A stretch of 59,209 nt of DNA from Candidatus Methylomirabilota bacterium (GTDB lineage Bacteria > Methylomirabilota > Methylomirabilia > Methylomirabilales > Methylomirabilaceae). Below the pieces are notes generated by a model that was not told the DNA's origin, made no database searches, and saw only the letters and a list, made by a program, of their open reading frames with translations. Below are positions 50,101 to 51,580 of this stretch, one piece after another. The stretch is taken from contig PQAM01000003.1 of NCBI GenBank assembly GCA_003104975.1, positions 1-59,209 on the forward strand. Reading direction: 5' to 3'. How positions within the stretch are numbered: the stretch's first letter is position 1; each line of letters opens with the position of its first letter. Position numbers and translations under genes: made by a program.

Positions 50101-50202
50101 TGGAGACCAGGGTGGGAATCGAACCCACATCCGCCCGATTTGCAGTCGGAACGGCATCACGGATTTGAAATCCGCGCCGCACGCCAGCACGGTCGCCTGG
50201 TC
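50101..50202 (-). tRNA. selC: tRNA-Sec (UCA), selenocysteine
   Basis: The minus strand folds as a long tRNA of 102 bases. The anticodon arm GCGGA-TTTCAAA-TCCGT carries TCA (50166-50168). The D-arm has six base pairs with a 4-base loop (CCGTGC-TGGC-GTGCGG), and there is a long variable arm (CCGTTCCGA...TCGGGCGG). T-arm is GTGGG-TTCGATT-CCCAC. These are marks of tRNA-Sec, not of tRNA-Ser or a UGA suppressor. The acceptor, as I fold it, has 7 base pairs (GACCAGG/CCTGGTC) with a U discriminator, one pair short of the usual bacterial 8; the CCA end is encoded. Confidence 0.85.
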
Positions 50203-50207
50203 ATTCG

Positions 50208-50780
50208 CTAGCTATTATCGGCCAAACGAATCCCCGTGAATTGCTACCGCTTCTCGGGCTGAAAGTAGTTCCGGTAACTAATCCGGATATGATCTCGTGG
50301 TGTGACGCAGGAACCACCCCTGAGAACCATTTGGTTCGCCATAAACTTACCGTTGTACTCTCCCAGCGCGACCAACCCGCTGAAATCCGACCAGTGTTCT
50401 TCTGCGATCTCCTCAATTAAATCATGCATCCGGCGGTCGATCGAGGACCGGTAGTTATAGGTCTCCTTGACCGTCGGGCGTGAGAGGTATCCCCGTCGAG
50501 CACGCTCAACTCGCGCGCCGAGAGACTCGTAGTAGGAGTTGAATAGAAAGCCGAACAGCGCATGATAGGGCCGGTAGTTGCGGGAGTATCGCTGCAGAAG
50601 AAGCGTTTCGAAGAACCAGGTAGTGTGACCGAGGTGCCATTTGGGCGGACTCACATCGACGATCGGCTGAATAACGTAGTCCTCGATTTCCAGGGGGAGG
50701 CAGATCGCTTCTGTCAGTTCGCGGATTTCAATATACTTCTTGAGCAGTCCCGTTCGTTCGTTTACCGTTTCTTTCCTCAT
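50208..50780 (-). pseudogene. EgtB-like sulfoxide synthase, internally deleted and with an amber stop
   Basis: The N-terminal DinB-like part (SPPKWHLGHTTWFFETLLLQRY, LFNSYYESLGARVERARRGYLSRPTVKE) is followed at residue 141 by the extreme C-terminus of the family (GEYNGKFMANQMVLRGGSC, RDHIRISYRNYFQPEKR). The region between, normally about 230 residues with the HxxxHxE iron ligands and the formylglycine-generating-like core, is missing. The join is in frame at VALG|EYNGKF. A TAG at 50244-50246 then replaces the Trp of the conserved RWQF(T/S)GIRLA; QFTGIRLADNS continues to the original stop at 50208-50210. The product cannot be an active ergothioneine-type enzyme. Confidence 0.8.
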
Positions 50781-51232
50781 TGGTCCTTGCGTGTCCCCTC
50801 AGCCTTCGTTCGATCCTGCTGTTGGCTCGTGCCGCACACGCCTGGTATGTTGCTCAACCTACCTCTTTCCGGTTGTCGCGTTCCGTTCCGCACTCCGGTC
50901 AGAACGTTCGCGGATGCTTTCTCACGGAATTCTTATAACAGCATTATTCCTATATCTCAAATAGAAAATACCGATATCTAAGGATACCGCTTTTCTATCT
51001 CCCACGCGACGCACTGGCCGCACAGGGCAACAGCCCCGAAGGTTAGAGCGGATACTTATCGGTCGACCAGCTTGGGGCGAAACGGCAAGCACTTTCTGCT
51101 TGCATACGATTCGCGTATCCGACAAGATGGGGGTGTAGAAATCGAGGCTGGCGAACCCCCTGAGCGGAACCCGTGAGTATGCAGCCTATGCCATTCGTAT
51201 ACACCATAGATGGCACAATGGAGGGGATGTTA
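50781..51232. other. Non-coding stretch between the EgtB remnant and the selenoprotein gene
   Basis: I see no gene. The part at 50930-51000 is A/T-rich. The short frames here are out of keeping with the rest of the window in composition and have no recognisable sequence. The stretch from about 51160 to 51232 must hold the selenoprotein promoter and its ribosome binding site GGAGGGG. Confidence 0.4.
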
Positions 51233-51580
51233 ATGGAACGAATCGATTGGAGATACCACCGCCCCGGATGAAAGTCCTGCGTCAAGACGCAAGAGTTTCT
51301 TGCGAAACATCGTGTCGAGATTGCGTTGCAGGTGGATGCGAAGAAAACAACCCTGAAGGAGAAGGAAGCGCTCGCGCTGATCCGAGAGGTGGACGAGATC
51401 TACGCGACGAAGGGGCAGAAAGTTATCCACGTTGACCTGCAGAAGGACAAGCCGGATAAGTCACAGCTCCTGGCGCTCCTGCTGGGGCCAAGCAGGAACC
51501 TGCGAGCCCCGACCCTCCGGAAGGGTCGCACGCTCATTGTCGGCTTTGACGCGGCGATTTACGGCAAATTATTTCGTTAA
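51233..51580 (+). CDS. ArsC-family selenoprotein with a U-x-x-C redox motif (in-frame TGA)
   Basis: Reading from the ATG at 51233-51235 (GGAGGGG 6 bases upstream), codon 13 is TGA at 51269-51271, and the frame then runs to a TAA at 51578-51580: 115 residues. The sequence before and after the TGA is one domain: DWRYHRPG-U-KSC-VKTQEFLAKHRVE. It continues with REVDEIYATKGQKVIHVDL and GPSRNLRAPTLRKGRTLIVGF (cis-Pro region), as in ArsC/Spx-like thioredoxin-fold proteins. The TGA sits where the first redox Cys belongs. Just after it, TGCGT-CAAG-ACGCA (51278-51291) can form a hairpin, as a bacterial SECIS would. tRNA-Sec is 1 kb away. A Sec reading is far more likely than a pseudogene. Confidence 0.85.
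51278..51291 (+). promoter_or_regulatory. Possible bacterial SECIS hairpin
   Basis: The stem TGCGT/ACGCA with loop CAAG begins 6 bases after the TGA; the loop G is 15 bases downstream of it. Bacterial SECIS elements lie in this place and carry a G in a small apical loop. The stem is short and its lower part is imperfect, so this is a candidate only. Confidence 0.45.

Follow-up and report, generated by a model that had tools for sequence, protein, structure and literature searches.

The window, a stretch of 59,209 nt of contig PQAM01000003.1 from a Candidatus Methylomirabilota bacterium, carries a gene that almost certainly encodes a selenoprotein of the ArsC-related family NF041106, judging from its sequence and from that of its homologues. 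Its product is most likely a selenocysteine (Sec)-thiol oxidoreductase on an Spx/ArsC-like thioredoxin fold, and neither a sensor nor an arsenate reductase.

Reading frame with a TGA at codon 13

The gene and the elements addressed below are the following:
51233..51580, + strand: predicted selenoprotein gene of the ArsC family with 115 codons and a TAA stop; Sec encoded at codon 13 as part of a UxxC motif
51269..51271, + strand: in-frame TGA, predicted to be decoded as Sec (residue 13)
51278..51280, + strand: TGC codon for Cys16 of the UxxC motif, invariant in the alignment
51220..51224, + strand: Shine-Dalgarno sequence GGAGG, 8 nt 5' of the ATG
51288..51304, + strand: SECIS-like hairpin CGCAAGA-GTT-TCTTGCG, 7-bp stem, loop 23 nt past the TGA
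50105..50202, - strand: tRNA-Sec gene, anticodon TCA (Rfam RF01852, 54 bits, gathering cut-off 47)

In the window sequence, the ATG at 51233 is in frame with the TGA at 51269-51271 and with a closing TAA at 51578-51580, and the frame contains this TGA as its only one. When the TGA is read as Sec (U), a product of 115 residues is obtained, which starts with MERIDWRYHRPGUKSCVKTQEFLAKHRVE. The coordinates of the open reading frame, of the TGA at codon 13 and of the U-x-x-C motif put forward in the first-pass annotation were thereby confirmed. The ribosome binding site, which had been rated as good, is the GGAGG at 51220-51224, and GAGG or GGAGG recurs with the same 8-nt spacing to the ATG in 10/10 copies of the genus.

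Mechanical reading of the sequence indeed yields an 84-aa ORF starting with TTG at 51326, the start that a routine gene caller had been expected to choose. The TGA could accordingly be an ordinary stop codon, with the true gene beginning at this TTG. We consider this highly improbable: TTG stands at codon 32 in just 7/35 homologous copies, and the codon found there is mostly no start codon at all, codons 2-31 are conserved with the redox motif included, and the good ribosome binding site at 51220 lies ahead of the ATG.

Conservation of the TGA and of the downstream hairpin

NF041106 was detected over its cut-off in 35 of the 95 Methylomirabilota (NC10) genomes, each match containing exactly one in-frame stop codon, which is TGA. 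Codon 13 is TGA in all 35 distinct aligned copies, and the Cys three residues on, which had been claimed for the window gene, is invariant. The proposed check for homologues with neither Cys nor Sec at codon 13 thus returned TGA throughout. No close homologue with a Cys codon was found within the phylum, and the Cys comparison is that with the distant relatives Spx (YTSPSCTSC) and E. coli ArsC (YHNPACGTS). Both possess Cys at the Sec position, in agreement with the view that Sec occupies the site of the first redox Cys.

The codons ahead of the TGA evolve as protein-coding sequence. Codons 2-12 exhibit 0.19, 0.16 and 0.48 differences per site at the first, second and third codon position, respectively, reflecting a coding-type third-position bias, whereas the 60 bases 5' of the ATG show no coding bias (0.69/0.70/0.71). 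The coding-like character ascribed to the region upstream of the TGA is therefore borne out. As TGA is one change away from TGC and TGT, the gene might also be a pseudogene in which a Cys codon has mutated to a stop, or the TGA might be a sequencing error. This explanation is vanishingly improbable, since the TGA is present in 35/35 copies from genera across the phylum, in which the protein is constrained on both sides of it, and since a conserved hairpin lies past the TGA. Both the downstream TTG start and the pseudogene were rejected in view of the homologues. One copy of the family (L052 in genome G053) is broken into two reading frames around codon 43, representing a frameshift or an assembly error.

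Two overlapping hairpins are found 3' of the TGA, TGCGT/ACGCA closer to it and CGCAAGA-GTT-TCTTGCG at 51288-51304. Minimum-free-energy folding of the window sequence favours the former, competing local hairpin, which we rejected as SECIS element (pairing in 84% of cells, with the innermost pair disrupted in 12/19). In the hairpin at 51288-51304, 96.8% of cells are paired across 31 rows, the innermost pair being A-U in 12, G-C in 15 and A.C in four of them. When pooled with the second Sec-containing family described below, 97.3% of cells are paired and three of the seven pairs have changed on both sides. The covariation score of the pooled hairpin was reached by 0/500 shuffles, a control that ignores sequence relatedness. 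Codon choice is likewise biased: Leu23 is CTT in 34/35 copies versus 21/416 Leu codons elsewhere in the same genes, and Gln20 is CAA in 32/35 copies versus 16/79 elsewhere. Comparison of folding energies with synonymous resampling revealed a modest difference (mean z -0.73, 29/35 negative). Since the shuffles ignore relatedness and the energies differ modestly, the case for the hairpin is built on the conserved pairing and on the choice of codons. Its geometry (loop 3 nt, stem 7 bp, G first in the loop, spacing 23 nt) is within the limits published for bacterial SECIS elements, i.e. a loop of 3-9 nt, a stem of 4-16 bp, G in loop position 1-2 and a spacing of 16-37 nt (PMC13188914). Thus, of the small hairpin claimed to follow just after the TGA, the existence of a conserved SECIS-like element holds, but its loop is located 23 nt on, and the hairpin nearest to the TGA is poorly kept.

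A second, divergent ArsC/glutaredoxin-like family characterized by LYNRxGUPTCxxAREFLS, with one in-frame TGA each, occurs in many Methylomirabilota genomes. It corresponds to about 36 matches to NF041106 below cut-off in the phylum, eleven of which were read:
L058:1019-1068, L053:1019-1068, L062:1019-1068; also L054-L057, L059-L061 and L063: second-family loci

For three representatives no NCBIfam model scored over its cut-off; Pfam Glutaredoxin passes. The hairpin of this family is located at the same distance from the TGA and is built from other stem letters, e.g. CGAGGGA-GTT-TCTCTCG. In the phylum scan, the genome of the window yielded only the NF041106 match and no second-family match. A relative of the second family lacking the TGA (L064 in genome G039) reads YDRACDCPSSELARR and seems to be a naturally occurring Cys variant in which the second Cys is gone.

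Selenocysteine machinery and gene neighbourhood

The genes selA (591 bits), selB (380 bits) and selD (412 bits), whose absence had been named as an argument against Sec decoding, are all encoded in the same genome. The selD gene (L045, G000:C15:56022-56948) carries an in-frame TGA of its own and is therefore itself predicted to encode a selenoprotein. Very large selenoproteomes have been described in Methylomirabilota, including one MAG with 63 predicted selenoprotein genes (PMC13188914).

The tRNA-Sec gene is located ~1.03 kb upstream of the selenoprotein gene, and its anticodon TCA follows from TTTCAAA on its own strand. ARAGORN as run did not list it at 50105-50202, though Rfam detects it. 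In a scan of 20 loci, a tRNA-Sec gene within 1.5 kb was seen in just two further members of the genus. Hence, the tRNA-Sec gene noted in the first-pass annotation is real, but we regard its proximity as weak evidence, because it is not general among these loci. An ORF of 178 aa at 50244-50780 (- strand), situated between the tRNA-Sec and the selenoprotein gene, contains DinB_2 as sole domain and, by eye, an FGE-like tail; it looks like a shortened EgtB-type gene.

The neighbours in the window include formaldehyde-activating enzyme and methylene-tetrahydromethanopterin dehydrogenase. Within the genus, synteny comprises Fae, methylene-tetrahydromethanopterin dehydrogenase, transglycosylase, Zip, MazG and NfeD. 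None of these genus neighbours is shared with the copies outside the genus, and as no such neighbour is common beyond the genus, the neighbourhood provides no functional clue.

Family membership and predicted function

In the NCBIfam search, the product matched NF041106, "ArsC family (seleno)protein", with 140.1 bits (cut-off 85) over the entire profile (1-107 of 107), and is thus a full-length member when the TGA is read through. All 24/24 members of alignment A1 match this model, and the U/C-x-x-C at the N-terminal redox site of the family appears as an invariant U13-x-x-C16. The window gene shares the UxxC motif, the Sec position and the full-length match with NF041106 (ArsC_rel_Se_1); nothing distinguishes it from this family, of which it is a Methylomirabilota member. 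Taken together, the NF041106 match, the TGA in 35/35 copies, the presence of selA, selB and selD, the Cys in Spx and ArsC and the covarying hairpin support the ArsC-family selenoprotein that had been proposed from the window alone.

The gene is an additional member of a family already known from the GOS survey of 2008, from reviews of 2022 and 2026 and from NCBIfam. The GOS survey lists "Arsenate reductase 2, cd03032, UxxC" (PMC2398784), apparently the same family as NF041106, an equation that rests on the tables of reviews. A UxxC "Arsenate reductase-like protein" is entered in the selenoprotein tables of PMC13188914 and PMC9312934, and NF041106 is already present in the former. The arsenate reductase selenoprotein from the Sargasso Sea (PMC1088965) is likewise a predicted Sec-containing ArsC-family protein, but it carries UxxS in place of the UxxC of the window gene and was counted as a separate family. 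Searches of plasmids and phages returned no homologues of the window gene, and a tested function of the NF041106-type family was not found in the selenoprotein surveys and reviews cited.

The product could be a genuine arsenate reductase, in which Sec13 would attack arsenate. Pfam ArsC was passed narrowly (26.9 bits, cut-off 24), and YHNPAC of E. coli ArsC (b3503, TIGR00014) aligns with YHRPGU, so that Sec13 matches the N-terminal catalytic Cys of that enzyme. However, the fourth motif position is Ser in E. coli ArsC and Cys in the window protein, the model TIGR00014 for glutaredoxin-dependent ArsC is absent among the matches up to E=10, and the Arg preceding Pro in E. coli ArsC (INRPI) corresponds, when aligned by eye, to an invariant Ala92 (LRAP). 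Moreover, ars genes were not found among the neighbours examined. Arsenate reduction is not supported, given the missing TIGR00014 match and Ala in place of Arg before Pro, and we consider it quite unlikely. The label "ArsC-like" therefore stands for the family relation, but not for arsenate reductase activity.

Alternatively, the protein might be an Spx-type regulator that senses redox changes, and not an enzyme, with a Sec-Cys bond switching RNA polymerase binding. The best solved relatives are indeed Spx (PDB 1z3e; E 5e-5, 26.6 bits), and the relation extends over the whole domain, the CxxC of Spx/MgsR aligning with UxxC, i.e. with its first Cys replaced by Sec, and the C-terminal segment LRxP...RLxVGF being similar as well. 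TIGR01617 (Spx/MgsR) is matched by 23/24 members and by the window protein with 38.5 bits, which is however below the cut-off of 75, and the likeness is common to glutaredoxins and ArsC. In addition, Sec is more common in catalysis than in sensing. A regulatory role of this type is rather unlikely, and an Spx-like transcription regulator whose Sec-Cys pair would sense oxidants or metalloids and act on RNA polymerase is unlikely, too.

We therefore favour the Sec-thiol oxidoreductase. Ribosomes would start at the ATG at 51233 and reach UGA at codon 13, where the hairpin with its loop 23 nt downstream would recruit SelB and Sec-tRNA-Sec for insertion of Sec. The product would adopt a thioredoxin fold, as suggested by its family membership; an AlphaFold model built from two sequences was set aside as too poor (mean pLDDT 53.6). 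Sec13-x-x-Cys16 would occupy the site of the redox Cys in glutaredoxin, ArsC and Spx, and the protein may cycle between a selenolate/thiol and a Sec13-Cys16 selenenyl-sulfide. We infer the actual Sec insertion and this redox chemistry from sequence.

These results correct the annotation of a gene that automatic callers would truncate or miss, and they document the use of Sec at one codon in 35/35 aligned NC10 homologues, accompanied by a covarying SECIS-like hairpin. The predicted selenoprotein represents a clean and well-defined target for biochemical testing.
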